NCBI RefSeq assembly: GCF_027579695.1
Contig: NC_083577.1
Location: 32,415,198-32,479,197 of the forward strand
Length of the DNA stretch: 64,000 nucleotides
Reading direction: 5' to 3'
DNA from: Neoarius graeffei
Lineage: Eukaryota > Chordata > Actinopteri > Siluriformes > Ariidae
Positions 3,657-38,628 of the stretch are shown here, in pieces (within the stretch, counting starts at the first letter, position 1; each line of letters begins with the position of its first letter). The position numbers were made by a program, and so were the translations under genes. A model generated the notes under the pieces. The model saw only the letters and a list, made by a program, of their open reading frames with translations, had not been told where the DNA came from and did not search any database.

Positions 3657-4160
3657 TCACAGCAGTTGTGCTGTGTCCTGCACGTCATTGCTCTCATCCA
3701 TGGCCAAAGCAAAAAACTCGAATTCTGACGCTTTCTCATTCAGCTGGTCATACATGTTGTCCCCCAAATCTTCGGTTCGCCTGGTCATAGTAGGTGCGGA
3801 GAGACTCACCGCGTTGAGCGCATCCTTCTTGTTGGGACACACCTCCTCGGCCACAGCAAGCATGCATACTTTAACAAAGTCCCCATCAGTAAACGGCTTT
3901 CCATGGGTAGCTAGTAGGTGAGCTACCTTATAGCTAGCTCGGACAGCAGCCTGGTTGATCTGGGTTTGGCGAAGGAATCCATTCTGTTGTGCAGCCAGTC
4001 CGCATTTCATCCTCCGAATCCTGTCTTCTCTTGTTTGCCCTCGCAAACTAACATACTCTTTGTGGCGGGTTTCGTAGTGATGACGCAGATTATATTCTTT
4101 GAAAACCGACACACTTTCTTTACATACAAGACAAACTGCACGGTCCTTACACTCATAGTT
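3657..4160 (-). pseudogene. hAT transposase N-terminal remnant (BED finger + start of catalytic domain)
   Basis: Read on the minus strand, the remnant opens with a zinc-finger-like segment (CLVCKESVSVFKEYNLRHHY, then ETRH: Cys2...His2 spacing of a BED-type finger). It continues through the region found in ZBED5/SCAND3-like Charlie transposases and reaches the first acidic catalytic motif (FALAMDESNDVQDTAQLL). It stops there. The rest of the catalytic domain, including the C-terminal dimerisation region, is absent, and AT-rich DNA and the minisatellite follow. No convincing start codon precedes the finger. It is therefore a truncated relic of the element that supplied the 2882-18330 ends. Confidence 0.75.
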
Positions 4161-4508
4161 CGAATTACGTGGGAGCCAATGGGAGCTGAGCTCCCATTCC
4201 CTCAGGCTCCCATGAAAGAAGCAAACTTAATTTTCTGTGGAAGTCTCTCAAATACGTCATATATCACCATAATAAGCTTGAATAGCCTATATCACCATAT
4301 AAATATAAATAAAACTCATTTCATTTCCGATCACCATGCAGCCATAACTTTGTATTGAACGTGTTATTAAACCGCAACATGTACGGCTGTACTTCACCAC
4401 CACACCACTATGCGCGCAAACTGAAATTTGCAGCCTGCGAAATCGAATGTGAAGTTAAGTCCGAAGAAGACTTGTCCTCTATCTCACAACGATCTTCCTT
4501 TGTTTAAC

Positions 4509-4583: not shown

Positions 4584-4650
<67 letters not shown>
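4509..4650. repeat. (AT)n microsatellite, insertion target of the giant transposon
   Basis: Two long AT runs are separated by AATTTGTTTAACT. The inner transposon begins directly after it (TATGGCATGCC at 4651), and the bases just past the other end (17755-17760) are ATATAT. Confidence 0.95.
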
Positions 4651-4653
<3 letters not shown>

Positions 4654-4674
4654 GGCATGCCGTTCAGGAAATTA

Positions 4675-5796
4675 ATCTTTGAATATATTGAATGAAACCT
4701 TGAATATATTGAATGAAACTTTGAATATATGGAATGAAACCTTGAATATATGGAATGAAACCTTGAATATATTGAATGAAACCTTGAATATATGGAATGA
4801 AACTTGAATATATTGAATGAAACCTTGAATATATGGAATGAAACTTGAATATATTGAATGAAACTTTGAATATATGGAATGAAACCTTGAATATATGGAA
4901 TGAAACTTGAATATATTGAATGAAACTTTGAATATATTGAATAAAACCTTGAATATATGGAATGAAACGTGAATATATTGAATGAAACCTTGAATATATT
5001 GAATGAAACCTTGAATATATGGAATGAAACTTTGAATATATGGAATGAAACCTTGAATATATGGAATGAAACCTTGAATATATTGAATGAAACCTTGAAT
5101 ATATGGAATGAAACTTGAATATATTGAATGAAACCTTGAATATATGGAATGACACTTGAATATATTGAATGAAACTTTGAATATATGGAATGAAACCTTG
5201 AATATATGGAATGAAACTTGAATATATTGAATGAAACTTTGAATATATTGAATAAAACCTTGAATATATGGAATGAAACTTGAATATATTGAATGAAACC
5301 TTGAATATATTGAATGAAACCTTGAATATATGGAATGAAACTTGAATATATGGAATGAAACTTTGAATATATTGAATGAAACTTTGAATATATTGAATGA
5401 AACTTGAATATATGGAATGAAACTTTTAATATATTGAATGAAACTTGAATATATGGAATGAAACTTTGAATATATGGAATGAACCTTGAATATATGGAAT
5501 GAATCTTGAATATATTGAATGAAACTTTGAATATATTGAATGAAACCTTGAATATATGGAATGAAACTTTGAATATATTGAATAAAACTTTGAATATATT
5601 GAATGACACTTTGAATATATGGAATGAATCTTGAATATATTGAATGAAACTTTGAATATATGGAATGAAACTTGAATATATTGAATGAAACTTTGAATAT
5701 ATTGAATGAACCTTGAATATATGGAATGAATCTTGAATATATGGAGTGAACCTTTGAATATATTGAATGAAACTTTGAATATATTGAATGAAACTT
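4675..5796 (-). repeat. Subterminal tandem array, left (~20-bp units)
   Basis: About 55 copies of a unit of the form TTGAATATATTGAATGAAAC with TT/GG alternation (ATTGAA or ATGGAA) and 18-20 bp length variants. Sixty bp (three units) can be free of stops, so the array yields long artefactual reading frames. Arrays like this near transposon ends often serve as transposase binding sites; that role is inferred here. Confidence 0.95.
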
Positions 5797-5799
5797 GAC

Positions 5800-5807
5800 T
5801 GACGTCA
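5800..5807 (+). promoter_or_regulatory. Palindromic CRE (TGACGTCA), left TIR
   Basis: A perfect TGACGTCA lies at the inner edge of the repeat array, about 43 bp before the ATG of the first-exon-like module. A YY1-type CCATCTTG follows at about 5831. Both sites recur in the right TIR, which supports a shared promoter. Binding by CREB/ATF and YY1 is inferred from motif knowledge only. Confidence 0.6.
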
Positions 5808-5850
5808 GACTTCACTGCAGTGAAGTGCGGCCATCTTGTGTAACGTGCGG

Positions 5851-6156
5851 ATGCTGCAGCAAAAAGTTAGTCAGTCCGCTTTTAATCTCGCAGCAGCAAT
5901 ATTAAACTGTAAGGACATGATCAACACACTGGCGAATGCGTGTACGGGCCAAAATCCTCCTGATACCCCTGCCCAATACCGTTCTTCTGACGAAAAAGTT
6001 CGCTCCCTTTTTAATCGTGGCAGACCTACTGCAACAGGCCAGGCAGCTGTTTATCAGGCTAACCTCAGCATGCCTTCAACATCACAGGAGTGTCCCACAA
6101 CAGCCCCATGTGTACAATCTCCGCCCGTACACAAGAAAGGGCCCAAGACACAAGAT
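5851..6156 (+). pseudogene. Diverged copy of HECT exon 1 in left TIR
   Basis: Counterpart of 16370-16677 in the left TIR. It starts MLQQKV and includes MINTLANAC and FNRGRPTA, then the same 5' splice donor context (AAGAT|GTAAGAATAG). It differs from the right copy at roughly a quarter of positions and has a 2-bp length change near its end, so the final residues fall out of the frame used on the right. Upstream of the transposase gene it could act as a 5' leader exon spliced to about 6800, or be non-functional. I cannot choose from sequence alone. Confidence 0.6.
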
Positions 6157-6662
6157 GTAAGAATAGCTAGGCTTTATTTTAAACTAGATGAGGGCTCTCA
6201 GTAGAGTGCATATAACGATATAGATCATATTCTATATCTCAGTGCAGCTATAATGAGCCCTGGTAACAGGGCGTCTCCTTCATAAAAAAAGCCGAACTAT
6301 TAACGGAACACTCTGCTGTGTGTAGAGGTCTGTATGTAGGTCTGTATGGTTAGCTTGATATAGTTTTCAGGTGATTTAATGAAGGTAAAACACAGTGAAT
6401 GGCCGTGCGTAATGGCACTGCGCTCTGACGCGGCACTTCTCCGGACTGGAGAAGCTGCTGTGGCTACAGGGATTTCGTGAACTGAAAGAGAAGCTCTTCA
6501 TATATTGTTTAGATACAATAAGAATCGCCCACATTCATAGACCAATGCAGGCTGAATATTTAATTTAGCACTGAACTTATTTGGCGACACATTGTCAGCT
6601 TTGGGCACGTTACTCACGCAGCGGACTGCAGACAGACAGACAAATGCATAATGAGTTTTGCC

Positions 6663-6740
6663 GAAACTTTGAATATATGGAGTGAAACTTTGAATATATA
6701 GAATGAACTTTGAATATATTGAATGAAGCTTTAATATACT
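6663..6740 (-). repeat. Extra internal units of the 20-bp repeat
   Basis: Three or four degenerate units (TTTGAATATATGGAGTGAAAC type) lie just inside the left TIR. I see no equivalent at the inner edge of the right TIR, so this is an asymmetry between the two ends. Confidence 0.85.
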
Positions 6741-6832
6741 TTTAAAAACTTGATAATACTGAATGACATCCAAAACCTAGTTGTATCCTTTTCATCAAAG
6801 TGATAGCCTGCTGAATTCGCTGGTTTTACAAA

Positions 6833-8635
6833 ATGGCATCAGTTGAACTATTCCAATACTTTCTTGAACTGGAAAACTTTTTTGCCACAGGTTGTACTCC
6901 AAATGACACTAACAGTTTGGAGACTATATCACGTCACCTTGAGGATCATATCTCTATTATTGCGACATTCACAGTACTTATGAGGAATGTTCAACAAAAC
7001 ATTGCTGAAAGGACATTATACGTCATTCTTGAAGGAATTTATGAGTCTCTCAGGGAGATGTTGGCGGAAATAACATTACAGCTGGAAGCTGATGTACAAG
7101 CTAATGGCATGGGCATCCATTCTGCGTCTCAGAGAGGAAGGCCTAAGTAAGTAATATTTAAATAAGGGTATGGGGATGGAGGCTGATGCAGGCCAAGTAT
7201 AATCTCTACTTAGTACATGGTACAATAAAGAAGTTACAAACTTGTTATAATGTATTATTATATAGACATTATTATAGGCTTCAACCAATTTATTCACACA
7301 ATGTGAATTAACACATTAACATATTTGGTTTTTTATTTGTTTTTTTTTTCTTTAAAGGTACAACATACCAGCTGCTCAGCTGATTCACATGCGGGATTTA
7401 GGATTTAGCTGGATGGCCATATCTCGGATGCTGTCTGTAAACATACGAACACTGTACAACCACAGGACACAGCTCGGTCTGGTGGACTATGGGAGTTTCA
7501 CTGACATTGCAAATGTCGATCTGGATCGACTTATTGCTGAGATTCTCAGGCAAACCCCCGGTTCCGGAGAGACCTATATCACTGGTAGTTTGAGAGGAAG
7601 AAGAATCAGAGTTCAGCGTTGGCGGGTACGGGAGCGTTTAAGAACAGTAGATCCAGTGGGGCGAGCCTTAAGAGGACGAAGGGCAATTCAGCGGAGGGTC
7701 TACAATGTCTCTGCCCCAAATCAAGTGTGGTATGTGTTGTTTTACTAATTTGATTAACATTAGTTATTTCTCCCTAGCTGGTCAATGACGCAATTCACTG
7801 ACCATTAACTCATTGAAAATATTGATACAAGGAACATTCTTATTATCAAGTAGAAATAGTCGTACAGCAAAGCCAATGAAGTTACATGTTTATGTACATC
7901 CAGTACATAACAATACTATAATAATAATAATAATAACTAATTTCTTATTTCAGGCATATTGACACAAACCACAAGTTAAATCCATGGGGATTTGTGTATC
8001 ATGGAGCAGTTGATGGCTACAGTCGCTGCATTACCTTCCTGAGATGTTGCACAGACAACCGAGCATCGACTGCCTTGCATCTTTTCCAGGGTGCTGTTGA
8101 TGTATTTGGACTGCCAGATCGTGTCAGGGGTGATGCTGGTAGCGAGAACATTGATGTTGCACGGTTCATGATTGAGAATCGAGGAACAAACAGAGGAAGT
8201 TTCATGGTTGGACGTAGTGTCCATAATCAAAGAATCGAAAGATTGTGGGCAGAAGTAAACAGGGTTGTGTCAGGATACTATAAAGACCTTTTCCTCTTTA
8301 TGGAAAATTTCGGACTTTTAGACAGCACTGACCCTCTTCACATTACAGCTCTTCACCATGTTTATCTTCCAAGAATTAACAGATCTGTGGATGAGTTTGT
8401 GAGCCAGTGGAACAACCACAGCTTGAGGACAATGGAGAGTCGGTCCCCACTGCAACTGTGGACAATTGGAATGCTCCAACTTCCTCAGCATCAAAGGCCA
8501 CTCAATCGTGTACCTGTGCAACCCCCTTATGATCACCAGTGGAATGTGGAGTTAAGGCCCATCAACCCCTTCACTGATGATGGAAATCATGGAATTGAAC
8601 TTTTTGTCAGAGCATGTGACCTGCTTGAGAGATAG
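6833..8635 (+). CDS. DDE transposase, integrase-core type (3 exons, 455 aa)
   Basis: Exons 6833-7146, 7358-7729 and 7954-8635 join at GT/AG sites in matching phase (1,368 nt including stop). Residues 1-105 form a helical N-terminal part. Residues ~117-142 (RDLGFSWMAISRML) look like a helix-turn-helix DNA-binding segment. The integrase core carries the acidic triad D232 (WHIDTNHK), D289 (RGDAGSEN) and E324 (HNQRIERLW), with 34 residues between the second and third. The protein should cut and join the element's ends in the nucleus. It belongs to the eukaryotic integrase-core group widespread in fish and annotated as uncharacterised proteins. The start at 6833 has a good context (ACAAAATGG). AATAAA occurs near 9059. 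No break is visible. The HECT gene converges from the other side. Confidence 0.88.
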
Positions 8636-8836
8636 TCTACTAGCTGCAGTAAATCAGTTGTTACACTGTTACACTGTGGTGTCATACATTGTCATATATA
8701 GACTCAGACATAACTAAGTAATTTTGAGAAATGTGTGTACAGGTCCTAGGACTGAAGATTTGCTTATAATGTGCTTTTCTTTCATAACAAAATGTGATGT
8801 TATCACCACATAGATATGTGCCATGCTTATTATATT

Positions 8837-8997
8837 CAGTTGTGGATGAAGTATTCAGTTCTTTTAGTTAAGTAAAAGCATATAAGTGTAGAGTAGAAGT
8901 ATACAGTTTCATACAATGCAAATACTCAAGTAAAGGACCTGAAATCTGTATTTAAGAAGAATACTTGGGTAAATGTACTTAGTTACTGTCCACCCTG
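8837..8997 (+). mobile_element. Short hAT-type MITE
   Basis: A 161-bp element begins CAGTTGTGGA and ends GTCCACCCTG, flanked by a perfect 8-bp duplication ATTATATT (8829-8836 and 8998-9005). The interior (AAGTATTCAGTTCTTTTAG, AAGTAAAAG...) is that of a fish MITE family I recognise by its repeated AAGTAAAAGTA motifs. It sits in the 3' intergenic space between the two transposon genes and has no coding capacity. Confidence 0.85.
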
Positions 8998-9523
8998 ATT
9001 ATATTTTATATTATTGTACATAATGCATTAATTTAACCCTATTGATGAAGATAAACTTAAATAAATTCATTTTGTGTACAGTTTTTCAAATCGAAAAAAT
9101 ATGACAAGTCCCGGATGCACATATCCTGTAGACACTGAAATGACAATGAACCAGTCCATACAAAGTAGGAATATAGAACCATTTATTAACAAGGCCTTAC
9201 CATAACCTTTAGAGGAAATAATCTGTGCTAATCACTCAATTGCTGTGGGTCATATCAAAGGGTGGAGATAAATGACATACATTGTCCAGTTGTGAACTTA
9301 AAAGTTCACCAAGTGCGCATTATTAAATCTGAAACAAAAACCATGGCTTGAAATATATCTTCGAAAGTAACAAATAGCATTTCTACTTATATTTCTTCAT
9401 GCCTATATTCAATACTGTCTCTAGGAAAAACAAAATGAAATAACAGCAATTATTTTTGAAAAACAAACAAGCAAACATCCTCATCATAACTCAAGCTCTA
9501 AAAGCCCTCCATAATATTACCTC
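8998..9523. other. Intergenic gap between the convergent genes
   Basis: No coding signal. It contains candidate polyadenylation signals for both genes: AATAAA on the plus strand near 9059, and AATAAA on the minus strand near 9182 for the HECT gene. Confidence 0.5.
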
Positions 9524-12500
9524 TCACGCTCTTCCAAACCCCGGTGAATTGCGTATGGCAAAAGTCATATCAGATTTGAAAGCAGCGTATTCTGCATGAA
9601 CTGGAATGCGAAGAATATTTTCACAAGTATTCGCTTGTGGAAATCGGGAATGGGTGATGAACTCAAGGCTTGGCTTTGGGGAGAAGCCCAGTGCTGGGAC
9701 ACTGTCACATCCAGTGAGGAAAACAAGAATATCCTCCATAGAGACGTCATTTTCACCTGTAAGACATAAAAAAAAAGAGTATCACAATTAATGATGACTA
9801 TGACTATTTTCCTAAAGTCATTAAGTATTATACCACTAAAGTGATGCAAAGTGATGTAAGAGAGGTGAGAAGTTAAATTCCCCTAAACCAGCATTAGGCA
9901 TTAGTTTTTATTTTTGAAATGACATGGTACTTTGAAAGGACAGCTCATAATGCTATAGACTAGTGTTGTGTAAAACTATAAACTTCAATATATGTTATGT
10001 ATTCAATCATACACTCTATGTAACCTAATGAAATATGTTTAGAGCGGCTAGGTAGCCCTGAGAACAGCTGTGTTTTGGGATAGGCTATGCTGTGGAAAAG
10101 TACCTAAAGTTCCTAATATGGTGTAAACAATCAGGACACCTTTATAAAACAAAGGCAGAGGATAAGCAGGTTCAAAAACACCCGACTGGCCTGAAATAAC
10201 ACCCAATAGAATCGGTCCGAGTTAAAATAAAACTTCAAGATGGGCTGAACCTCCTCAGGTCAAAGGCTACAGAGGAGCAGAGCAAACAAACAAAAAATAA
10301 ATAGATAGGAATTGATGAGGACCATAAGAAATCCAGGCTAATTTTGCTCAAAGTTTGCTGGACGCATAAGAAGCCATTACAACCCAGATATGATTATGAA
10401 TGTGCAAGTAGATAGATAGTATATCTACAAATATACGGTATACTTTTCTTGTGGAGAAATACAACTTTTACACTCTATTCTTACCAAAACCCTAACAATA
10501 GGTCCAGAGAAATGGAGCTGGATTAGGTCAAGCTCCACCTCTCTGCATGTCCATTGGCTCTGCAGTGAGCACCACTTGCAAAGGATGGTCCCAGAGCAGT
10601 TGGGGGTTCAGTGCCTGAGCTTGAGGAAGCTTAAGCAACAAGGGTACTTTGGCTGTATCCAGAAGACGAACTGGCACCTCTGCAGCTACTAGTCCACACT
10701 GAATATTTGGTCAGAGCTGACAAACATTACTGCTGCCCCAATTAATGTATTTATAATTCATATAAACTGTCTTACATAGTGGAACGTCTCAATTAAAATG
10801 ATTTTTTTACCAATGTCATGTACTATTATGATGCAGCCAAAACAGTGTCTGTTGTCTTGATGAAGCACTGTCCAAAATGCCAAACTTACATTCAGCATCC
10901 TGAAGGTAGTCTTGCCAGAAAGCCAGGGTACGGCACTCTTCCTGGAATGCATTACTCCCTCTTTCAGAGTGAATGATCCGGAAGAGATTCTCTACATCAG
11001 CAGCTGTTAAACTCTTTTCAGGCTTCAAAAAAAGGCACTTCATCTGTAGAGGGTATCTCTGGAGAGCATCTAGGACACCTAGAGACATTAAGCCATCTCT
11101 GAACCTATTAAAAGGGAAACAAATTGGAATGTGGGGAAGAGTGATTTGAACCACAGCCACTGCAGAAGGTTCTGTACCATGCTCTACCAACAGAGCCACA
11201 TGGGCACCCCTACAATGAATTTCAAAAAAAAAAAAAAAAAACTTTGACTTGCACTGGTGCACTATAAAATGGAACTCTACATCCATCATTGAAATTGTTC
11301 TTATACAGTGGTAACATAGTTTCTATGGCAGCAGCTACAAACATACCTTTCAAAAGGTGCACGGGTCCGCTGGAGGACATACCAGTGAGTCAAGTCCAAA
11401 GCAGTCTCTTGTTTGTTTTGCAGTGTTATGCGAACATTGTGACCTGCAAGACTGATCAAGCCGGATGCCTGTATAACTGCATCTTGCAGTTGTGATTCAG
11501 TCTCAGCTTGTAAGATCTGAAAACATTAAAATAACATTAGGATATGAGAACAGTAAATATTTATTGACTTTTATTTAGTATTAAGACATACAACTGTTAG
11601 CTTTACTGTTTAACTTGCGTGTTAATGAGTGCATGAAAAATGAATAATTTGTTAATAAATTCAATAGAATCAAAGGAAAATGTGCTCACCGACTGCACCT
11701 GTGACCTTGTTTCTTCATCAGTAATATGTTCAGTTTTGACCTTTACATTGTCCGGACCTTTCTGAAGACACTCATACAAGAGTTCAGACAGGAAACATGG
11801 ACTCTGTCCCCCATGAGCAATTGACATTGCCATAATCTGGCCAGCATTGAAGTATCCATTATCTTTCATCGCTGTTATCAAATGAAATTAAACATCACAT
11901 GTGAAATGGTTACATCAGAAAGGCTGATTTTTATCAAAATTTCCAAAAAGGTATTATAGATTAATACAGTATTAATATAATGTTGTTGGTCTGAAGCTGA
12001 GCACTCTTGGAGGTGGCTGAGGACAGAATCCAAACTAAATTCCATAGGATCATGGACAGTAGCACCCATCCCCTCCATAAAACACTGGACAGACTCAAGA
12101 GCACATTCAGCAACAGATACAGACTCCCCACTGTTCAAGAGAGCATTACAAAAAAATCCTCTCTGAAAACTCATTTAATCATAGGTACCTTTGGAGTTGC
12201 ATGTGAGGACTTTAGCATCAGGTGGACCTTCAAAGATGCCAATTTTGTCCTTGATTTCATGAAGACAGAGTCGGAAAAACTCCCGAGTAGGTCCTCCATT
12301 GTCCACGGCACCCTCAGATATGCCATAGTCATCAGTAAACTTGACATCTACCTTCTTCTCGGGTGAAAAATTGGATCTGCCCAGGGCTCTGGATGCTCCA
12401 TCCCACACACTTCTTCTTATGATATTGAAGCGCACAGTGCTGTCATTATTTACTCTAGATGAAATCTGCTCCATTATTCTCTCTAAAGTCATCTTTAAAT

Positions 12501-15500
12501 CACTGGAACAATAATAAACAATAAAACAAAGTAATTGTTAGTGTCAATGGCAGTAACTCATATACTGAACTATAATCCAATATCCACAAGTTATTAATAT
12601 TGATTAAAAATCCATTTTCCAAATGCGATGAGGTAAAGGGATAAGGGAAAGAGTTTTACTTTTTTCTTACTTTTCCAGAAGTATTTAACCTACTGATATA
12701 TATTGCACGTAAAATGCAAAGAGCATGAGAAGAATTTACAACACTGAAAACCACCCTTCATCCATAGAGGCACTGAAACCACTAAATCAATGGCCTTCAC
12801 ACCTTGTATTAAAATGCACTTTTTGTGATCTGATTGCAATCAGATAGCGCTTGACCTCATTAAAGTACAGGTGTACAAAAACTCAAAACGAGTCACATTG
12901 AGGATGGATTGTTATTCATACATCCATACATACATACATACATTCATACACATGAAATATAATGCATGTTATAGCACAGGTAATCTCCATTCAGAGAAGT
13001 TTTTACACCAGAAAAAATAGATCTATTTTATATTGTTGACAAAATGACCACAGAAATGACTGGATAAAAGATAAAGAACAATAGGTTGCAGCTTGCTTTT
13101 TGCTACTTGTCTCTAGGCTAGAAAATAAGTTGTTATCCTGGATTACAACACTTATATTTTATATAATATCTTCTACTGACCTCTCACTCGCACTGGAATC
13201 TAAAGACCTGGAAATAGCTTCCTGGAGATCAGGGTCATCAGAGAGGTATTCTTCCTCAAATAGGTCAAGGTATGTGCTACAAAATAAAACAAGAATATTT
13301 TATAATTAAGGTACAAATATGATGTTTGTTCACACAGACAGTTGCATTACCACTGGACAAAGACCTTCCTTGATGGTTTAATAACTTAAATTTTCTTGAA
13401 TGGACAGTGCATTATTTAAAGATGTAATATATGCCATTTGACAGCTGCCTGTTGTAAACAAACGTGGAGAGGACAGAGTGGGAGGTTCTCAGATTAGGCG
13501 GTGGCTGCACATCATTTAAAGAGCTCTCAGCGAGCGCATATGGCAACACAATCAGCATGTGGGATTGTGTGGCGGTGTGTATATTTGTGCTTATGTAACC
13601 ACTATGAAACAATCAGAAAATAATGTTATATTTCTCTGATTCACCAGTTGTCTCACCACTGCTCACTCTCCTTGTTCACTCTCTATGTCACTCTACCACT
13701 GCTGCTCTCTCTCTTTCTCTCTGATGCCCCACGCAATGAAGTAGTGATAATGATGTGTAACTTGACCATGTGTCTGATACAAACACAAATGAAACAGAAT
13801 GGACCCATGGACTTGCTTGCACTAACATACACCTGTCTGTGGGCAGGCAAAGGACTATTTGTTCCTCAGAGAGGTTCAGATCAAAACAAATCCAGAGGGA
13901 GTGCAACTTTCTTCTCGGTTCAGGACACCATGACTCCACAATATATTTACACAGAAAATTCTTTGCTGACAATACTGTATGAGAAAAATTTAGAAAAGAT
14001 GGACCTGTACGATGTGCTGGATGAACTATTGCCCGACGCACTGGGTTGAGTGGGACCGTGGGACACACCGGAGGTCCTATTCGCAAAGATGCAATGCCTT
14101 TTACCGCTTGCATTGACAGTGGGGACAACCGACAACCCATGAGTGTTGCCAGTGGAGATGTCAGGAATTCCACTGGACATGGTGAGAGTTTCATCAGTAG
14201 TGATGACACCAGCACTAGTAGACACGGTGAGGGTGTCAGCTGGGATAGAAGGTGCATCAGTGCAAATAACTTGGGTAGCAAAACACCATATAACTTCGTC
14301 ACCACTGTACATGGAAGGGGTATGACTGGAGTGGGAATGGGCCTCAGAAGTGGAGATGTCTGGGACAACTTCTTTGGAAACATCAGGCGCACTATCAATG
14401 GCTGTAACTGTAACATGGAAAATTAACTTTTGAGCAACATTTAACTTATACGACAGTGAGCATCAGCAACACATTTAGGGCTTGTACAATACATGTATTA
14501 TGTGGTAGATTTTTTAAAAAGTGTATTTTTTTTCTGTGCAAAATTATTAGTTGAAATAAAATTGATTTTTTAAGAAAATACTTAACATATAATGTAATAG
14601 TGTAAAAATATTTACCAGTGTCAGATATTTCTGCCAAACCAGAGTCATTTGTAAAGCTGCTTTCTCCATCAGAAAATGACTGTAAATGCAAACAGATAAA
14701 TACAATAACTTTTATGGATCCAATAGACTATACTAACAACAAAAGATTGTAACAGACTTTTGTATTATGACTGAGCATACTACAAGTAACTGTTTAAATC
14801 AAGTGTAAAATACAGTATTGCCATTGTGACTACCACTGTCATAAACATGTCTTGAAATCGTCAGTACTACTTACAGATTCTTTTTCCTCACTTAAAATGA
14901 TCTTGTCAGGCCTGACATAAATGGACTTCTGATGAAACAGTTTTTTCACAAGGTCTCCATTCAAACTCTGTGTGGGGGTAAGGGATGGCTCAACTAGTTT
15001 GTTGTAGCATGGTAGCAGGATTTCTAACCTAAGGGAAGGAAAAACAGACTGTACATGAAAATTCTGTTGAAGCTAAAAGAGCACACTACACTACAAGATT
15101 TAGTGTCAATACATCATTCGTTGCCCGGGTTGTACTTGAACACTGGCTGTTGTGGAAAGGCCTTTAGTAAATGGGGTGCACACTCTAGGTGAGCTACCAG
15201 GACACCTCAGTTCAGTATAACTTAAATGGAAATGTTACAACCATAATGCATTGACAAAATGTGTGTTCATCTTGTTATATATCCCAGCAAGCCTGTCGGA
15301 AATCAGCAGCAGCAAAAGGGAATGTAAAATAATAAAATAATATTTTAATTCACAACACACAAGCACTTAAAATGAAGCTTTCATTGTATAGTATGTTGTG
15401 GTATTCGTGCAAATATCCAATAAAAAGAGGTAACAAATATGACAAAACAATTCCAAAACTTACCTGCATCCCTCCACAACTGGCTGGAAGGCTGTTTTTA

Positions 15501-16677
15501 TTGCCTGCATTACTGTGTCAGAATCCCAGTCACAGCTGAATTCCAAGGCAGACTTGATGTGGCCATTATCAAAAAGCCATGCTTTTTTGGCACGCCTTGG
15601 CACATGTGTAGCTTTGTGGTCGGGCAGGAGAATCACCTCTTTGAAAAAGGACTGAGCCACAGAACGTGAACTGCCTTGTCCCTGAAACCTTAGAAACATT
15701 AAACAAAATATATAATTCTGTATAGAAACAGGCAGTATTAACAGTAATTTATTACTGTATTCATTTATGTATTTTGTGGTTGGTATATGCCATTAAACTG
15801 TGTTACAGTGATTAATACAGCAGTAATACCATTTTTTAATTCCATAGTAATTATCTCCGTAAGGCATAATCTCATTATGCATTTGTCTGTCTGTCTGCAG
15901 TCCGCTGCGTGAGTAACGTGCCCAAAGCTGACAATGTGTCGCCAAATAAGTTCAGTGCTAAACTAAATATTCAGCCTGCATTGGTCTATGAATGTGGGCG
16001 ATTCTTATTGTATCTAAACAATATATGAAGAGCTTCTCTTTCAGTTCACGAAATCCCTGTAGCCACAGCAGCTTCTCCAGTCCGGAGAAGTGCCGCGTCA
16101 GAGCGCAGTGCCATTACGCACGGCCATTCACTGTGTTTTACCTTCATTAAATCACCTGAAAACTATATCAAGCTAACCATACAGACCTACATACAGACCT
16201 CTACACACAGCAGAGTGTTCCGTTAATAGTTCGGCTTTTTTTATGAAGGAGACGCCCTGTTACCAGGGCTCATTATAGCTGCACTGAGATATAGAATATG
16301 ATCTATATCGTTATATGCACTCTACTGAGAGCCCTCATCTAGTTTAAAATAAAGCCTAGCTATTCTTACATCTTGTGTCTTGGGCCCTTTCTTGTGTACG
16401 GGCGGAGATTGTACACAGGGGCTGTTGTGGGACACTCCTGTGAGGTGGAGAGTATGCTCAGTTTGGCCTGATAGGCAGCTGCCTGGCCTGCTGTAGGCCT
16501 GCCACGGTTAAAAATAGAACGAACTTCTTCGTTAGGAGAACGTGCAGGGTATTGGGCAGGGGTAGGAGCAGGATTTTCACACGCATTCGCCAATGTGTTT
16601 ATCATCTCCTCGTTGCTTAAGATTGCTGCAACGACATTGCGAGCGGGCTGACTCATTGTGACTTTCTGCTGCAGCAT
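9524..16677 (-). CDS. UIM-HECT E3 ubiquitin ligase, G2E3-like (11 exons, 785 aa)
   Basis: Exons: 16677-16370, 15688-15464, 15028-14875, 14679-14616, 14401-14005, 13276-13181, 12502-12189, 11871-11690, 11516-11347, 11104-10890, 9756-9524. All junctions are GT/AG and in phase; the total is 2,358 nt. A ubiquitin-interacting motif lies at ~396-410 (DPDLQEAISRSLDSS), after a Ser/Thr-rich exon. The HECT domain runs ~420-785, with DVKFTDDYGISEGAVDNGGP at its start and catalytic Cys753 in FPQANTCENILRIP near the C-terminus. The HECT half resembles fish G2/M phase-specific E3 ligase-like proteins. It should take ubiquitin from an E2 onto Cys753 and pass it to an unknown target. An alternative ATG is at 16656. 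Exon 1 and promoter lie inside the right TIR, so the gene belongs to the transposon. No break is visible. Confidence 0.88.
11140..11218 (-). repeat. tRNA-like SINE-head fragment in HECT intron
   Basis: On the minus strand, GTGGCTCTGTTGGTAGAGCA (A-box-like) is followed after about 30 bp by GTGGTTCAAATC (B-box-like). A poly-A run (plus strand, 11224-11241) is adjacent. The acceptor stem does not pair well, so a SINE head is more likely than a working tRNA gene. It lies just upstream of the exon at 11104. Confidence 0.4.
11990..12185 (+). mobile_element. Possible LINE 3' coding fragment in HECT intron
   Basis: Plus-strand translation gives HPLHKTLDRLKSTFSNRYRL and then a segment that resembles the extreme C-terminus of fish LINE ORF2 proteins. 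It occupies most of the 317-bp intron 12188-11872, antisense to the gene. Weak, family-level resemblance only. Confidence 0.3.
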
Positions 16678-16719
16678 CCACTCGTCACACAAGATGGCCA
16701 CAGGCACGGCCCTGAAGTC

Positions 16720-16727
16720 TGACGTCA
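16720..16727 (-). promoter_or_regulatory. Palindromic CRE (TGACGTCA), right TIR
   Basis: Same site in the right TIR, about 43 bp upstream of the HECT gene's first ATG (16677), again followed by a YY1-type CCATCTTG. It is the likely core of the HECT gene promoter. Confidence 0.6.
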
Positions 16728-16728
16728 G

Positions 16729-17731
16729 TCAAGTTTCATTCAATATATTCAAAGTTTCATTCCATATATTCAAGGTTTCATTCAATATATTCAAAGTTTC
16801 ATTCAATATATTCAAAGTTTCATTACATATATTCAAAGTTTCATTCCATATATTCAAGTTTCATTCCATATATTCAAAGTTTCATTCCATATATTCAAGT
16901 TTCATTCCATATATTCAAGGTTTCATTCAATATATTCAAGTTTCATTCCATATATTCAAAGTTTCATTCCATATATTCAAGGTTTCATTCCATATATTCA
17001 AGGTTTCATTCCATATATTCAAGGTTTCATTCCATATATTCAAGTTTCATTCCATATATTCAAGGTTTCATTCCATATATTCAAGGTTTCATTCCATATA
17101 TTCAAGGTTTCATTCCATATATTCAAGGTTTCATTCCATATATTCAAGTTTCATTCAATATATTCAAAGTTTCATTCCATATATTCAAGTTTCATTCCAT
17201 ATATTCAAGTTTCATTCCATATATTCAAGGTTTCATTCAATATATTCAAGTTTCATTCCATATATTCAAGGTTTCATTCAATATATTCAAGGTTTCATTC
17301 AATATATTCAAAGTTTCATTCCATATATTCAAGTTTCATTCCATATATTCAAGGTTTCATTCAATATATTCAAAGTTTCATTCCATATATTCAAGTTTCA
17401 TTCCATATATTCAAGGTTTCATTCAATATATTCAAGGTTTCATTCAATATATTCAAGGTTTTATTCAATATATTCAAAGTTTCATTCAATATATTCAAGT
17501 TTCATTCCATATATTCAAGGTTTCATTCCATATATTCAAAGTTTCATTCAATATATTCAAGTTTCATTCCATATATTCAAGGTTTCATTCAATATATTCA
17601 AGTTTCATTCCATATATTCAAGGTTTCATTCAATATATTCAAGGTTTCATTCAATATATTCAAGGTTTCATTCCATATATTCAAAGTTTCATTCAATATA
17701 TTCAAGGTTTCATTCAATATATTCAAAGATT
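16729..17731 (+). repeat. Subterminal tandem array, right (~20-bp units)
   Basis: The inverted partner of the left array, about 50 units of the type TTTCATTCCATATATTCAAG. Unit order and length variants differ between the two arrays, so they have expanded or shuffled separately. Confidence 0.95.
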
Positions 17732-17754
17732 AATTTCCTGAACGGCATGCCATA

Positions 17755-18330
17755 ATATATGCGCAACACTGTGTGTGTGTGCGTGCGTGCATGCGCGCGC
17801 CTGTGTGTGAAAGCTGTGCACTGCAGTGCGCAAAAGTGCGCTGGTCCAGGAGAGCAAGTATGCATTGCTTTTTTTTTTTTAAATAGAGACCCCCATAGGG
17901 TCAAATTTATAATTCGAACCCTGCTTACACTGAACGAAAAAATATTCGGTGGTCCACTGTTCTTTAAAAACTCTGCACTCTCTGTCAGCTTTTTGCTGAC
18001 CGCTCGCCATTTTGCTGTCCTGAACACTGACAGTTCTCTGCGCATGCGCTGCCTGTCACTGCTTGATTGCGAGCATATGACGAAAATTCGGAAAATATGA
18101 ATAGTTAATTTTATAACTAATTATCAATTTAATTGATAAAATCAACAAAATACAAGATGCAGACATGTTATTATTTGCCAAAAAGCAATTTAAAAAAATA
18201 GGCCATGACCACTTTTGGGGATTGCCTCATAGGGCCGGTTCAAGTGATGGGGGGCAGAGGGGCTGGGGGGCCGGTCAAAGGGGGGTGGCGGGCCGGATCT
18301 GGCCCGCGGGCCGTAGTTTGGTGACCCCTG
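17755..18330 (-). other. 5' end of the relict hAT
   Basis: Sequence between the giant transposon and the right hAT terminus. It holds a GT/GC-rich run (17768-17810) and, next to the terminus, G/C-rich sequence rich in GGCCG/CGGCC typical of CAGGGGTCACC-type hAT ends. No coding sequence of the hAT remains here. Confidence 0.6.
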
Positions 18331-18338: not shown

Positions 18339-18480
18339 TGTTCATCATGTTAGTGGTCACGGCATAATGGCCGGCAATCAATATATGGCTGCAGGCTATA
18401 TCATTTCTGATCCTTAACTCTAAAAACTGATAAATGACTGTTATTGGTGCCTTAGAAGGCACAATTATGATCAATAATTG
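18339..18480. other. Flank of the hAT, duplicated elsewhere in the window
   Basis: This 140-bp flank resembles 2340-2410 plus 2785-2835 on the other side of the hAT: shared GGTCAC, ATGGCCGCCAATCAATAT-like and CTTAGAAGG-like strings occur in the same order. It contains no gene. Confidence 0.5.
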
Positions 18481-20506
18481 AAGGGGCCAATGTAGCGAGG
18501 AGCAAGCTTGCGGTTCTCCACCCGCAGTGGAAGGTCCTTAGTGGACAGCCAAACACGCTGCCCAGGGCGGAAAGCGTGTGCAGGTCTTCTATGGCGGTTG
18601 GCCTGAGTCTGGTTGGTTCTGGAGGTCTGTATGAGGGTCTTCCTGACCTTGCTCCAGGTCTTGCGACACCGTCTCACATATTGGTTGACCGAGGGCACCC
18701 CCGCGTCCTCCTCCTGGTCCGGGAACAGAGGTGGCTGGAACCCGAATTGGCACTGGAATGGCGACAGCTTGGTGGCCGATGACTGCAGGGTGTTGTGGGC
18801 GTACTCCGCCCATGGCAGCCAGGTGCTCCACGATGTCGGGTTATCCATAGCCAGGCCTCGCAGGGTGGTTTCCAGGTCCTGGTTGAGCCTCTCCGTCTGA
18901 CCATTGGACTGTGGGTGAAACCCAGAGGAGAGGCTGGCAGTGGCTCCGATGACCTTGCAGAACCCGTGCCACACTCGGGAGGAGAACTGGGGCCCTCGGT
19001 CTGAGACGATGTCCTGTGGAAGACCAAAGACTCGGAAGACATGATTAAACAAAAGTTTCGCAGTTTCAAGAGCAGAGGGGAGTTTGCACAGTGGTATGAA
19101 GCGGCAGGCCTTGGAGAATCTGTCAACTAAGACCAAAATGACCGTGTTACCTTGTGACTCAGGGAGACCCGTGATAAAGTCGACTGCCACGTGGGACCAG
19201 GGACGCCGGGGAATGGTCAGAGGATGCAGGAGACCCTGGGGACGCTGTCGTGGGTTCTTGGTTCTGGTGCAAACCTCACAGGACAGGACAAATGACCTTA
19301 CTTCCTTCTCCATGTTAGGCCACCAGAAGCGTCTTTTCAGGAAGTCCAGGGTCCTCCGAGCTCCCGGGTGGGCGGTGAGAGGGGAAGAGTGACCCCACTG
19401 GAGAACCTTGGCCCGGGCTTGATGTGGGATGTACAAGAGGCCTGGTGGCCCCGTCCCAGGACCGGGGTCCTGGCGTTGGGCTCGTCGGACAGCCTCCTCA
19501 ATACCCCAGCGGACAGGGGCCACAATCCGGGACACAGGGATAATAGGCCCGACTTCATTCTCCCTGTTAGTGGCAGAGAACAGTCTGGACAGTGCGTCAG
19601 GTTTGGTGTTCTTGGAGCCGGGGCGGTATGAGAGGGTGAAGTCAAACCGACTGAAAAACAGGGCCCACCTAGCCTGTCGAGGGTTCAGTCTCTTGGCTTG
19701 CTGGAGGTACTCCAGGTTCTTGTGGTCAGTCCAAACCAGGAATGGATGTTGTGCTCCCTCCAGCCAGTGCCTCCACTCCTCAAGGGCCAGTTTGACCGCT
19801 AGCAGTTCTCGATCCCCCACATCGTACCAGGACTCAGCAGGACTCAGGCGGTGGGAGAAGTAAGCGCAGGGGTGCAGCTTTCCTTCCGAACATTGAGAGA
19901 GCACCGCGCCGACACCACTGTCCGAGGCGTCCACCTCCACGATGAATGGTTGGGAGGTGTCCGGGAGAACCAGAATGGGTGCCGTGCAGAAGCGGTCCTT
20001 GAGGTCTTTGAACGCCTTTTCTGCCTGAGGAGACCAGCCATAAGATCCACCTGTCCCTTTGGTGAGGTCTGACATGGGTGCTGCCACAGAACTGAAGTTC
20101 CTGATGAACTTGCGGTAGAAGTTAGCGAATCCTAAGAACCGCTGAACCTCCTTAACGGACTTGGGAGTAGGCCAATCCCGGACGGCCAGGGTCTTGGCAG
20201 GGTCCATTTGGAGTTGGCCTGTCCGTACAATAAATCCCAGAAAGGAGACCTCGGGAACATGAAATTCGCATTTCTGGGCCTTGGCGAACAGATTGTTCTG
20301 TAGCAGCCTCTGGAGAACCTGGCGGACATGGTGGCGGTGCTCCTGCACGGTCTTGGAAAAGATAAGGATGTCGTCGAGGTAGACAAAAACGTATAGGTTA
20401 ATCATGTCCCTTAAGACGTCGTTGATTAGGGCCTGAAAAACAGCTGGTGCGTTGGTGAGTCCGAAGGGCATCACCTGGTATTCGTAGTGCCCAGACGGAG
20501 TCTTTC
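18481..20506 (-). mobile_element. Ty3/gypsy internal fragment (RT, RNase H, integrase)
   Basis: The minus strand encodes part of a reverse transcriptase ([22 protein letters not shown]), RNase H, the zinc-binding integrase N-terminus and the integrase core ([17 protein letters not shown]), in ordinary gypsy order. It is cut at both ends: by the LTR at 20507 and by unrelated sequence at 18480. It is a relative of the element at 34230-43100. The remaining coding part reads open over about 2 kb. No LTRs belong to it. Confidence 0.88.
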
Positions 20507-20985
20507 TGTTAGGGTTTTGCTGGGATTCGAACCTGGTTCGTTGGTGTGATAATCCAGCAAACCCCCACTAGGCCACCAGGGGGGTGACTCAAATGCAGAG
20601 GCGTGAGGCGGAAGTAGAAAAAGAATCAAAAGGTTTATTTAAACTATATACACTATATACAGGGCAAAACAAAAGACAAAAAAAAAACCAAAGAGTATAA
20701 TCCAAAAGAAAAGCAAAGTGCAAAAATTCAAAAGCTAAGAAGATCAAAAAACACAGTACAAAGGAAACTGGAGATAAACATAACAGCACAAAGACTCCGT
20801 GACAAGAGGACTGAACTCAGGGGTATAAATAGACAAACTAATTAAGGACACAGGTGAAGATAATTAGGCAATTAACACAAACACAAAACACAGGAACAGT
20901 GGTGGCCTCTAGAGGCCAAAATAAACACGACATGAAAAGGAAATAACAGCGGCCTCTAGAGGCCAAAACAGTCCTAGTCCTAACA
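20507..20985 (-). repeat. LTR (solo-like) with tRNA-like 3' end
   Basis: On the minus strand it begins TGTTAGGACTAGGACTG and ends AACCCTAACA, with inverted TGTTAGG/CCTAACA tips, a TATA-like TTTATACCCC and AATAAA. It is about 479 bp. Its last 70 bp on the minus strand read GGTGGCCTAGTGGGGG...GGTTCGAATCCC, which resembles tRNA A and B boxes. I find no clean 5-bp target duplication, and it separates two unrelated gypsy fragments. Confidence 0.65.
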
Positions 20986-22492
20986 GAGGCATTGGGTATG
21001 CGTTGAATATAGACACCGCGTTGACTTTTCTATAGCCTACACAGAACCGGACCGACCCGTCGGCCTTGGGTACCAAGACCACCGGGCTGCTCCAGTTGCT
21101 GTGGGACTCCTCGACGATGCCCATTTCGAGCATGGCCTCGAGTTCTTCCCGAACCACTTTATTCTTGTGTTCAGGTAGCCTGTAAGGGTGGCTACGCACT
21201 ACCAGCCCCGGGGGCGTCTCAACGTGGTGCTCTATGAGGTCGGTGCGGCCGGGCAGGGGCGAGAACACGTCCAAAAATTCAGTCTGCAACTGGGCAACCT
21301 CCGCAAGTTGGGTCGGGGAGAGGTGGTCTCCACAGGGGACCGGAGAGGTACGCAATGCCAATGCTCCCTTTTGAACCTCCGGCCCCAGCTCCGCCTTCTC
21401 CGGAACCACCGACACCAACATCACGGGGACCTCCTTGTTCCAGAGTTTGAGCAGATTGAGGTGGTAAATCTGTCGCGCCCCACCCCTGTCCATTCGCCTC
21501 ACCTCATAGTCGACGTCCCTGACTCGCCGTGTGACCTCAAAGGGTCCTTGCCACTTGGTGACCAATTTGGAGCTCGATGTGGGCAACAGTACGAGTACTT
21601 TATCTCCCAGTGCAAACTCCCTAAGGCGTGTACCCTTGTCATACAGGCGGGTTTGCCGTTCTTGGGCCTGCCGCAAATTCTCCTGGGTTAGGTGTGTGAG
21701 GGTGTGGAGTTTTGCACGCAGGTCAATAACGTATTGAATTTCATTTTTACTTGGTGAAGGTCCCTCCTCCCAATTTTCTCACAGCACGTCTAAAATGCCG
21801 CGCGGCTTATGCCCATATAACAATTCGAACAGGGAGAACCCCGTGGAGGCTTGTGGGACCTCTCGCACTGCAAACAACAAGGGTTCGAGCCATTTATCCC
21901 AATTACGTGCGTCCTCGCTTACGAATTTCTTAATTATATTTTTGAAGGTGCGATTGAATCGTTCGACTAAACCGTCCGTTTGTGGGTGATAAATGCTGGT
22001 GTGGATTGGCTTAATACCTAATAACCCATACAGTTCATTCAGTGTTCGTGACATAAACGAGGTGCCTTGATCAGTCAGAATCTCTTTGGAGATTCCAACT
22101 CGGGAGATAATGCGGAAGAGCACTTCCACAATATTGCATGCTGAGATATTGCGAAGAGGCACTGCTTCCGGGTATCGCGTTGCATAGTCCACTAAAACTA
22201 ATATAAAGCGATACCCTCGTGTTGACCGATCTAATGGCCTGACAAGATCCATCCTAATTCTTTCGAACGGGGTCTCGATTAATGGGAGAGGGTGCAAAGG
22301 CGCTTTTGGAATGGCCGCTGGATTTACTAACTGGCATTCACGGCACACCGTACACCACCTACGGACATCGCTGCAAATCCCTGGCCAATCGAACCGGGCC
22401 ATTATTTGGGCTAGTGTTTTATCCTGCCCTAAGTGTCTAGCCATGGGATTAAAGTGAGCCGCCTGGAAGTGGCAAACAAGCCTGGATGAGGA
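20986..22492 (-). mobile_element. Gmr1-like Ty3/gypsy fragment (integrase before RT)
   Basis: The minus strand gives integrase (zinc-finger region, then LVDYATRYPEAVPLRN and YHPQTDGLVERFNRT), a linker, then the start of reverse transcriptase (VVLVPKADGSVRFC). Integrase ahead of RT is the hallmark of the Gmr1 group of deuterostome Ty3/gypsy elements (Goodwin and Poulter), unlike usual gypsy order. Same family as 22972-24993 and 56679-61677. It is truncated at both sides with few internal breaks. Confidence 0.85.
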
Positions 22493-22971
22493 TGCAAGTT
22501 TATCTTGCCACCATGCACAGTGAGGAGGATGGTAAGAGAAGTAAAAAGCTCTCCAAAGCTCACTGTTAGAGAATTGCATCAAAGAGTAGCATCTTGGGGT
22601 CACAAAGTCTCCATAACAACCATCAGGCACTATCTACATGCCAACAAGCTATTTGGGACTGTAGATATGGGCAGGTGTAGGCGAGTGGCTATGTTCTTGT
22701 AGCCATTGCCTGACTTATGAAGGTCGACACACATCTGTCTTACTTGAATGGTGTGTTCTCTTGTCTTTCCCATGTTGAAGAGTGGATAAGAGAAATAGGC
22801 CTCTGTGGCACATAATATTTACATCCCAGGGAAACAGGATGTGATGAATTACTAATTAAAGGTTCCTAGATACTCGGATCAACTTTATAAACTACAGTAA
22901 AAATGACAGAAATGCTTCAATTACATTTATTTTCTACGAATTGTTATGGGTGCCAATAATTGTGGAACAGA
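22493..22971. mobile_element. Tc1-like transposon fragment with internal inversion
   Basis: The right end carries the TIR-like GGGTGCCAATAATTGTGGAA. On the minus strand, 22772-22660 encodes a Tc1 transposase start (MGKTREHTIQVRQMCVDLHK). The next part of a Tc1 transposase (CTVRRMVREVKSSPKLTVRE) lies at 22505-22655 but on the plus strand. The catalytic domain is missing. Confidence 0.7.
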
Positions 22972-24993
22972 TGTCTGGCAGTGGGGGCATGGTCAAACGT
23001 CGGTCTGTGACTGGAGGGCGGAGTCAGGGAAGGTAAGTGGCAGAATCACTACACCTGATGTCAATTAACCTGTGTTTGTGTGTCTTCCCAGCAACCACGC
23101 CCTATATAAGGAGATAGAGAGCAGAGGAAGTGAGCTCTCCCCAACCAGATGACTTATGTGTGTGTGTATGTGTGTGGCTGGGACAGTGTGCTTTTGCAAC
23201 TGAAAAGTGCAAATAAAAAGAGTTTTTGGAACTCAGTTCTGGCCTGCCATACTTCTGTGCTCCACCCACCCGCTCTGATTACTACAGTGGTGCTGAAACC
23301 CGGGACTCCGAGCACAGAGGAGAACAGCCCCATGGAGTCCTCCACCTTCGCAGACCTGATCCACGCCCTCACCATGGCCCAACAGAGCCAGCACCAGGCG
23401 CTGCTCACCCTCCGAAAGGAGCAAGAACAATGGTTCGAGGCCCTGGTGCTGGTGCAACAGGAAGATCGTCAGGCGTTCCGGCACCTCCTCATGTCGGCGG
23501 TGTCCACCATCTCCACCGCTGCGGGCCCACTCCACCTCACCCTCATGAAGATGGGCCCACATGACGACCCCGAGGCCTTCCTCACGCTATTTGAACAAGC
23601 AGCAGAGGCCTCGGGGTGGCCGGTGGAACAGCGCGCGGCGTGCTTCCTCCGCCTGCTAACAGGCAAGGCGCAGCTGGCCGCGCTACAGCTCCCCGCTGAC
23701 AGCCGGCTGGTCTACGCGGACCTGTGCCGGGCCGTCCTCCAGCGTGTGGGGCGCACCCCCGAACAACATTGTCAGCGCTTCAGCGCCTAGAGGAGGTTGG
23801 CCACCCATTCGCATTTGGCCAGCAACTCCGGGACGCCTGCAGGCGGTGGCTGAGGGCTGACAACCGTGACGCCGAGGGAGTCGTCAAGCTGGTGGCACTG
23901 GAGCAGTTCATCATGCAACTTCCCAAAGGAACGGCGGAGTGGGTCCAGTGCCATCGCCCGGCGTCGCTGGATCAGGCCATCGAGTTGGCAGAGGATCATT
24001 TGGCGGCTGTTCCCACGGCAGGATCACAGATCCCCTCTTTGCTTCTCTCCTCTCTATCTCTATCCCTCCCCTTCTGTGTCTCGTCCTCGCCCCGTTCCCC
24101 CACCGTGGAGGCGGGGGCTGGCTCCCTCACAGCCAGTCCGCCACACCCACGGTGCCCTCCCGTTTCCTGCTTCCGTATCTGTCTCCCCCCCCAGGTGAAT
24201 GAGTACCGGTGCAGAGAGAAATCCCGGGCTGACTTGCTGACACTGCGGGGAGCCAGGGCACCTCCAGCATCAATGCTCGGCAAAGGAAGTGGGCGCGGTG
24301 GTCCGGATCCCCGACACACCAGGAGCCACCCTCGATCGGGCCGGAGCATATCACCTACCGGTGAGTATCCAAGGGGATACATATCAGGCGTTGGTGGACT
24401 CTGGCTGTAATCAGACCTCAATTCACCAAAGCCTGGTGCAAGTTGAGGCACTGGGGGGAGCACAGGGGGTGAAGGTGTTGTGTGTGCACGGGGATGTTCA
24501 TAGCTACCCTTTAGTGCCGGTCCACATTTTTTTCAGAGGGGAAAAATTTAGAGTAAAGGCGGCAGTTAATCCTCACCTCACCCGCTCGATAATTTTGGGG
24601 ACTGATTGGCCGGGATTCAGGGAGTTAATGAGTCATTTAGTGAAGCGTGGGTCCTGCCGTAGTTCAGCAGGGGAGGTCTCGGTGTCGCATTGGCGGGAGC
24701 AGCTGTCACAGAGCTGTCTACGTCATCTCCGCGTCAGAGTAAGGAGCCGCAGGCTCCTCCTCCCTCTCTCGGGGAATCCCTTGCGGATTTTCCATTAGAG
24801 CTATCACGAGACAAGACTCTGCGGCATGCGTTTGACCAAGTGAGAGTAATCGATGGTCAAACGCTCCAGCCAAACGCCACCCCATCCTTCCCCTATTTTT
24901 CTATTATGAAGGATAGATTATACCGAGTGACGCAGGACACTCAGACTAAAGAACAAATCACACAGCTTTTGATTCCAAAAAGTCGCCAGGAAT
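22972..24993 (+). mobile_element. Gmr1-like Ty3/gypsy 5' part: LTR, gag, protease
   Basis: The 5' LTR is about 22972-23286, with a TATA box (CTATATAAGG) near 23102 and AATAAA near 23213. The primer-binding site (GTGGTGCTGAAACCCGGG) follows directly. Gag-like sequence (MAQQSQHQALLTLRKEQEQ) starts about 23330, and a protease-like LVDSGCNQTSIHQ lies near 24390. The element stops at about 24993, before integrase. It is a fossil with several breaks, closely related to the two-LTR copy at 56679-61677. Confidence 0.85.
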
Positions 24994-38310: not shown

Positions 38311-38532
38311 ATGCGGCATGGCGATGTAGCTTACAGCAGGTTATGGTCGCTGAACTGCTGGCTGTCCAGGTGGTGCTCTGAAAACAGTGTGGGCTTTATA
38401 GATAATTGGGCTAATTTTGAGGGCACTGCTGGCCTGTTAGGGCGGGACGGTATCCATCCCACTCGGGAAGGTGCTGCTCTCATTTCCTGCAGCATAGGTC
38501 ATAGTCTCAGAACAGGCCTAGTTAATTTCTGA
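38311..38532 (+). pseudogene. L2 ORF1 C-terminal remnant
   Basis: The last ~70 residues of the ORF1 esterase: [18 protein letters not shown], then [17 protein letters not shown], the final SGNH-hydrolase block with its catalytic Asp/His pair (D..H). The N-terminal two thirds are absent because of the 5' truncation of this copy. ORF2 begins about 100 bp downstream. Confidence 0.75.
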
Positions 38533-38628
38533 CAATCCAGAGCCAAGGCCAGGGAGCAGACGAACAGGCTAAACCGACTGTCTGCTAGCTGCACAGAGTC
38601 GTCACTCAGGGCCCACTACATCGAGACT

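Follow-up and report, generated by a model that had tools for sequence, protein, structure and literature searches.

We analysed a window of 64,000 nucleotides from the catfish Neoarius graeffei, family Ariidae (contig NC_083577.1, positions 32,415,198 to 32,479,197) and found that its positions 4651-17754 form a complete-looking DNA transposon with two convergent spliced genes, one encoding a DDE transposase (plus strand) and one a predicted HECT-type ubiquitin ligase (minus strand). Judged from its sequence, the element very probably belongs to the IS3EU superfamily, as a type that also carries a HECT gene. A preliminary description had proposed a 13.1 kb DNA transposon with matching ends and two convergent spliced genes, and this held on inspection: the terminal pair has 0 mismatches and both gene models are open. 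The element, its flanks and its arms are as follows.

4651-17754, unstranded: the whole DNA transposon, TATGG...CCATA, 13,104 bp, from repeats, motifs and reading of the sequence
4645-4650, unstranded: left ATATAT, probable target-site duplication of up to 6 bp, ending a (TA)n run
17755-17760, unstranded: right ATATAT, probable target-site duplication
4651-6658, plus strand: left inverted arm, with the terminal motif, 21-bp array, diverged copy of HECT exon 1 and near-identical inner part
15868-17754, minus strand: right inverted arm, made up like the left arm and containing HECT exon 1
4679-5798, plus strand: tandem array of about 54 copies of the 21-bp unit TTGAATATATTGAATGAAACC
16731-17735, minus strand: inverted counterpart of the 21-bp array, about 48 copies
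6663-6738, plus strand: extra short run of 3.7 copies of the 21-bp unit TTGAATATATTGAATGAAACC, just inward of the left arm

The ends are an exact inverted pair, with TATGGCATGCCGTTCAGG at 4651-4668 (plus strand) and 17737-17754 (minus strand), each with 0 mismatches, in a scan of the window that allowed up to three mismatches and had 0.04 chance matches expected. Among the 25 longest of 852 inverted-repeat pairs, one of 324 nt (99% identity) joins 4645-4968 with 17437-17760, and another of 554 nt (99%) joins 6105-6658 with 15868-16421. The arms are ~2 kb each and read, from the end inward, TATGGCATGCCGTTCAGG, the 21-bp array, a diverged stretch and the 554-bp inner part; the arrays are possible candidates for transposase-binding sites. 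With a (TA)n run as the left flank, the target-site duplication of this single copy is readable as 2, 4 or 6 bp, with 6 as the maximum, and a 6-bp duplication is possible. A nested insertion of two elements was considered and rejected, as the window holds no second terminal-motif pair at up to three mismatches. Comparison of the element with the rest of the window by blastn, with the low-complexity filter on, gave no match.

The transposase gene spans 6833-8635 on the plus strand and encodes 455 amino acids in three exons. Its spliced product is identical, letter for letter, to the annotated N. graeffei LOC132892147.

6833-7146, plus strand: transposase exon 1
7358-7729, plus strand: transposase exon 2, helix-turn-helix region
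7954-8635, plus strand: transposase exon 3, with D232, D289, E324 and the stop

All 12 introns of the two genes (2 in the transposase gene and 10 in the HECT gene) are GT-AG and in phase, with zero internal stops in either gene, and the interval that separates the ends of the genes contains a single AATAAA and a single TTTATT. The in-phase junctions, the lack of stops and the triad D232/D289/E324 described earlier were all recovered on the spliced models. The transposase matched Pfam rva_4 (E 3.3e-77) and, at 29.1 bits and below the cut-off of 32.6, Pfam rve (E 1.2e-6). An AlphaFold model of the transposase (P0001; mean predicted local distance difference test score, pLDDT, 82.9) matched the integrases of Rous sarcoma, mouse mammary tumour and T-lymphotropic viruses, as present in intasomes, in Foldseek; the best match was the Rous sarcoma virus integrase (E 8.2e-6), and retroviral TM-scores by target were 0.4-0.8. 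At the sequence level there was a weak match to the integrase of T-lymphotropic virus HTLV-2 (E 2.6e-4). The model has a helical N-terminus, and residues 110-144 are predicted to form three short helices in helix-turn-helix order. By sequence and model, the protein is a predicted DDE enzyme of retroviral-integrase-like type with a predicted helix-turn-helix.

In the accessible parts of the two sources, IS3EU elements are described by TA...TA ends, usually 6-bp duplications and no HHCC domain (PMC10045372), and the families of rust fungi by ends of the form TAYGG...CCRTA (PMC12730594). The Neoarius element begins with TATGG at 4651 and ends with CCATA at 17754, which falls within the rust-fungus form, and like those families it has an integrase-like DDE transposase. 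Its flank repeat would be compatible with a 6-bp duplication, though 2 or 4 bp can also be read. No HHCC zinc domain was seen upstream of the transposase core, and the Pfam scan gave no match to Integrase_H2C2. Since the ends and the type of transposase agree and the duplication is compatible, the assignment to IS3EU is very probable. The accessible text further describes fungal IS3EU elements bearing TET genes, in which an alpha-kinase gene lies opposite the transposase with TET/JBP in between (PMC12730594). The fish element likewise has a further gene oriented opposite to its transposase, but here the extra gene encodes a HECT ligase with a ubiquitin-interacting motif (UIM)-like sequence instead of an alpha-kinase or TET/JBP dioxygenase. 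Its ~2-kb arms with large 21-bp arrays also differ from those of the fungal families, described in that text only as over 30 bp, and a HECT exon 1 within the arm is a feature of this element, unlike fungal IS3EU as described there. The fungal TET/JBP transposons resemble it in bringing an additional enzyme with a possible effect on control by the host, but differ in chemistry, in host kingdom and in spanning many transposon superfamilies (PMC12730594, accessible part). A literature search by title and abstract opening, covering sources outside most subscription journals and Repbase, returned no transposon with a HECT gene.

The HECT gene has 11 exons between 16656 and 9524 on the minus strand and encodes 780 amino acids.

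16370-16656, minus strand: HECT exon 1, inside the right arm
15464-15688, minus strand: HECT exon 2
14875-15028, minus strand: HECT exon 3
14616-14679, minus strand: HECT exon 4
14005-14407, minus strand: HECT exon 5, linker, of low confidence in the model of a relative
13181-13276, minus strand: HECT exon 6, with the UIM-like motif DDPDLQEAISRSL
12189-12502, minus strand: HECT exon 7, where the HECT domain begins
11690-11871, minus strand: HECT exon 8
11347-11516, minus strand: HECT exon 9
10890-11104, minus strand: HECT exon 10
9524-9756, minus strand: HECT exon 11, with the catalytic Cys748 and the stop

Pfam placed the HECT domain at residues 493-778 (E 1.7e-21), covering profile positions 8-304 of 306 with both the N and the C lobe, and profile matches to NEDD4-type structures reached E values down to 6e-18. 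Cys748 lies in the sequence NTCENIL of the C lobe and is invariant in 10 of 10 rows of the ligase alignment; the catalytic cysteine reported before is present, although its number was 753 and is 748 in our model, presumably through other splice choices. With a full HECT domain and the C-lobe cysteine, the protein is a predicted HECT-type E3 ligase. The model of a relative from Etheostoma (P0122; mean pLDDT 66.5, with 251 of 731 residues below 50) matched the HECT domains of Smurf and Rsp5, with a best E value of 3e-14 but a large root-mean-square deviation. Judged by the UIM consensus, we take DDPDLQEAISRSL in exon 6 to be a UIM-like motif; Ser402 occurs in 10 of 10 alignment rows and Ala398 in at least 90%. 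Pfam gave no UIM call on the ligase and found HECT as its sole domain. The N-terminal domain (about residues 105-215) had no Pfam match and a PDB match at chance level (E 1.5); from its predicted order of strands and helices it may be ubiquitin-like. A second Neoarius HECT copy, P0141, is 97% identical to the ligase model over residues 18-500, so this part of the exon model is backed by an existing annotation; the annotation of P0141 stops within the HECT domain, at 482 amino acids.

HECT exon 1 (16656-16370) sits within the right inverted arm, in agreement with the earlier claim that it lies inside the terminal inverted repeat; the promoter claimed for the same place we can only infer. Annotated relatives in Collichthys and Labeo start with residues resembling ligase exon 1. 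One motif of note lies upstream.

16720-16727, unstranded: TGACGTCA, upstream of the HECT start, with a mirror copy at 5800-5807

TGACGTCA, which we take to be a CRE/ATF palindrome, occurs exactly twice in the window, at mirror places in the arms just upstream of exon 1 and of its copy. AAGATGGC, presumably YY1-like, is mirrored at 5830 and 16691, and this 8-mer is present three more times in the window. These mirrored motifs upstream of exon 1 make it plausible that the ligase promoter is borne by the arm. At 5842-6172 the left arm contains a diverged copy of HECT exon 1 (counterpart 16370-16656) that has no start codon; its peptide is alignable, with gaps of 1-2 residues, up to a single-base frame change. 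A diverged exon copy beside 554 bp of 99% identity points to an exchange of arms between related elements, or to gene conversion between them.

To profile the relatives of both proteins, we used a transposase search that gave 594 matches, of which the best 120 were listed (the first 19 being fish-labelled), and HECT searches that gave 34 matches, 46 with a 10-row profile and 58 relatives from both together. Members of the close HECT clade share roughly 60-98% identity with the ligase of the element. Among the matches listed, both genes were on contigs of equal length, our proxy for the same contig, in five of eight other fish species; the eight are the non-Neoarius species of the close clade with contig data for both genes, and the value compared is the longest contig per protein cluster. 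The shared lengths were 31,066,395 in Pagrus major, 35,216,744 in Etheostoma spectabile (with the consecutive tags FQN60_004275 and FQN60_004276), 40,555,546 in Acanthochromis, 57,125 bp in Austrofundulus limnaeus and 34,021,760 in Clarias (P0009/P0159). Closeness of the two genes was seen only in Etheostoma and Austrofundulus. Two further Neoarius contigs (93,710,430 and 64,775,943) carry the HECT copies P0141 and P0155, and in Erpetoichthys the transposase (54.7% identity) and the HECT protein (54.8%) are at a like distance.

Trees were built from 20 transposases and 24 ligases, hand-picked from the listed matches; the bootstrap of the ligase tree was unsettled (correlation 0.987), and Larimichthys and Erpetoichthys formed long branches in it. 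Path distances of the two protein trees were correlated over nine matched taxon pairs (Mantel r 0.76, permutation p 0.0009), a set in which two pairs cross genera (Labrus/Notolabrus and Carassius/Cyprinus) and the Clarias (P0009/P0156) and Sarotherodon pairs are on different contigs. The correlation was r 0.90 (p 0.0056) for the six pairs made up of the window and the five same-contig pairs, and r 0.76 (p 0.0095) for seven same-species pairs. Since vertical descent alone could correlate the trees, more weight falls on the joint departure of both genes from the host tree. In the transposase tree Neoarius is joined to Pagrus (100/100), and in the HECT tree to Pagrus, Collichthys and Larimichthys (100/100); Clarias in both trees and Tachysurus in the transposase tree are placed apart from it. 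A catfish clade was rejected by the approximately unbiased (AU) test for the transposase (p 0.0056) and for HECT (p 1e-5), as was a catfish clade plus Carassius for the transposase (p 0.0003); the groups were chosen after the trees were seen, which makes these p values optimistic. The transposase path from Neoarius to Pagrus (0.057) is about that between Oreochromis and Sarotherodon (0.011 + 0.056) and shorter than that between the catfishes Clarias and Tachysurus (0.083 + 0.068). For the proteins of both genes, the element trees conflict with the host tree, and for the transposase far hosts are separated by a short distance. That both trees put Neoarius with the sea bream and away from other catfishes suggests joint horizontal transfer, and the simplest reading of these sequences is that the whole element moved between an ariid catfish lineage and percomorphs. 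Ariids are largely marine.

The claim that the ligase gene belongs to the element and is not a trapped host locus is supported by the equal-length contigs in five of eight species with closeness in two, by the correlated tree distances, by the place of Neoarius beside percomorphs in both trees, by the Neoarius HECT copies on two further contigs and by the similar exon 1 in Collichthys and Labeo. As the ligase stayed with the transposase across fish lineages, it most likely raises the success of the element. We consider it fairly probable that this is an autonomous cut-and-paste IS3EU transposon with two genes of its own, whose ligase acts on host restriction factors. The transposase would bind the subterminal 21-bp arrays, excise the element and reinsert it with a 6-bp duplication. 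The ligase would be transcribed from a promoter in the arm, bind ubiquitin-bearing targets through its UIM and move ubiquitin via Cys748 onto host proteins that restrict the element, such as silencing or repair factors, and the tagged factors would be removed or re-routed. By analogy, we would rank host restriction factors above control of the transposase, and the latter above cell-cycle effects; host factors come first because the accessory genes of fungal IS3EU elements are read, in the accessible part of the source, as countering host silencing (PMC12730594).

Alternatively, the ligase may tag the transposase or transpososome of its own element, either limiting copy number or disassembling the complex after transfer; a retained ligase could serve the transposase itself in this way instead of acting on the host. 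Convergent genes in one element and correlated tree distances are as expected of interacting proteins, and with arms that mirror each other the two genes could have similar promoters. Binding between transposase and ligase is a supposition here, though, and a distant group of HECT relatives (36-39% identity; P0142 and P0144-P0151) had no equal-length contig with the 120 listed of 594 transposases in a by-eye comparison, so that the ligase family may exist without the transposase. We regard self-directed tagging as rather unlikely, yet as the chief competitor of the action on host factors that we prefer.

Fish genes annotated as 'G2/M phase-specific E3 ubiquitin-protein ligase-like' belong to the same protein family as the ligase of the element; they are annotated as host genes, whereas here one lies inside a transposon. 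In the accessible part of a study of Cottus, G2E3 is among the protein matches of unclassified repeat candidates (PMC5638112). The proposal that such fish genes derive from the element is supported for the close clade; for the distant group of 36-39% identity it would be speculative, as no equal-length contig with a listed transposase was seen there. This kinship would fit a ligase that acts on the cell cycle or DNA repair, opening a window for gapped-site repair or for extra copies: the named host relative G2E3 (P0152, from Fukomys) has the HECT domain in common with it, at 32% identity over 379 columns. P0152 has the zinc fingers PF13771 and PF13832, however, while the ligase has none and carries a UIM-like motif and an N-terminal domain unmatched in Pfam. 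We rejected the ligase as a G2E3 orthologue, since it has no PHD fingers (Pfam found only HECT); the name reflects the nearest relative only, and a role in cell cycle or repair appears improbable.

Several points weigh against the action on host factors that we prefer. In Clarias the tags of the two genes are 133 apart and not neighbours; in Sarotherodon, Tachysurus and Carassius auratus (three of the eight species) the listed genes are on different contigs; and the two further Neoarius HECT copies have no transposase on their contigs among the matches listed. The Mantel correlation is weaker with Pagrus removed (r 0.68, p 0.011) and with Pagrus and the labrids removed (r 0.66, p 0.047). The ends and arms are known from the DNA of one copy, and the target, expression and activity of the ligase are predictions. 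The C-terminal tail is reached by 24 of the 58 listed ligase relatives and missing from the other 34, which suggests that many copies are truncated, decayed or mispredicted. Such losses, together with a ligase activity that is predicted only, could point to a passenger without function, picked up a single time from the host as a gene or part of one, as DNA transposons do capture host sequence. The 11 exons are open and in phase, though, 21 of the 24 relatives that extend into the tail retain Asn-Thr-Cys, the genes are paired in five of eight species, the trees are correlated and exon 1 is built into the arm. Given the open frames, the pairing and the correlated trees, we judged functionless capture unlikely, indeed very improbable.

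Beyond the fish genomes, a scan of prokaryote contigs returned three sequences of 3.4-4.2 kb, filed as a bacterial sponge symbiont, with IS3EU-like transposases of 40-49% identity (L001-L003). They had no HECT match and are probably sponge DNA in a bacterial bin. Scans of viral contigs gave no confirmed relative of the transposase or ligase and no exact terminal motif.

Outside the element, the window appears to contain further mobile sequences. Two non-LTR (long terminal repeat) retrotransposon copies lie in opposite orientation ~8 kb apart (27643-30715, minus strand; 38533-41607, plus strand) and, being 99% identical over 3,075 bp, appear to reflect recent activity. Open frames at 18471-22633 (minus), 23134-24798 (plus), 34643-38381 (plus) and 58149-61439 (minus) resemble, on visual inspection, fragments of LTR (Gypsy-like) elements; the one such stretch searched for domains, 18474-20567, has reverse transcriptase, RNase H and integrase domains. 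An open frame at 44272-45402 (plus) with a GIY-YIG domain (E 1.7e-5) we take to be, probably, a Penelope-like element. Just outside the left flank of the transposon, an open frame at 3657-4226 (minus) has a Spin-doc-type zinc finger (E 2.8e-9) and is probably a piece of a transposon-derived zinc-finger gene.

The transposase and ligase genes appear to have moved as a pair among several fishes, so that some of the fish genes now annotated as ubiquitin ligases of the cell cycle probably belong to transposons. More tentatively, and with more doubt than conviction, we propose that this vertebrate transposon lineage is a two-enzyme system in which a transposase is joined by a substrate-specific HECT ligase that disarms host restriction by ubiquitination, that the variable linker of the ligase tracks host targets when the element moves from one fish species to another, and that a large share of the fish 'G2/M phase-specific E3 ligase-like' genes are this system or its domesticated remains. 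If so, a vertebrate transposon would carry, as a regular member of its gene set, an effector that conjugates ubiquitin, and the binding partners of the ligase would offer a direct way into how such elements counter host control. Part of the 'G2/M phase-specific E3 ligase-like' annotation would then be re-read as transposon, which bears on studies of gene families and copy number in fish.

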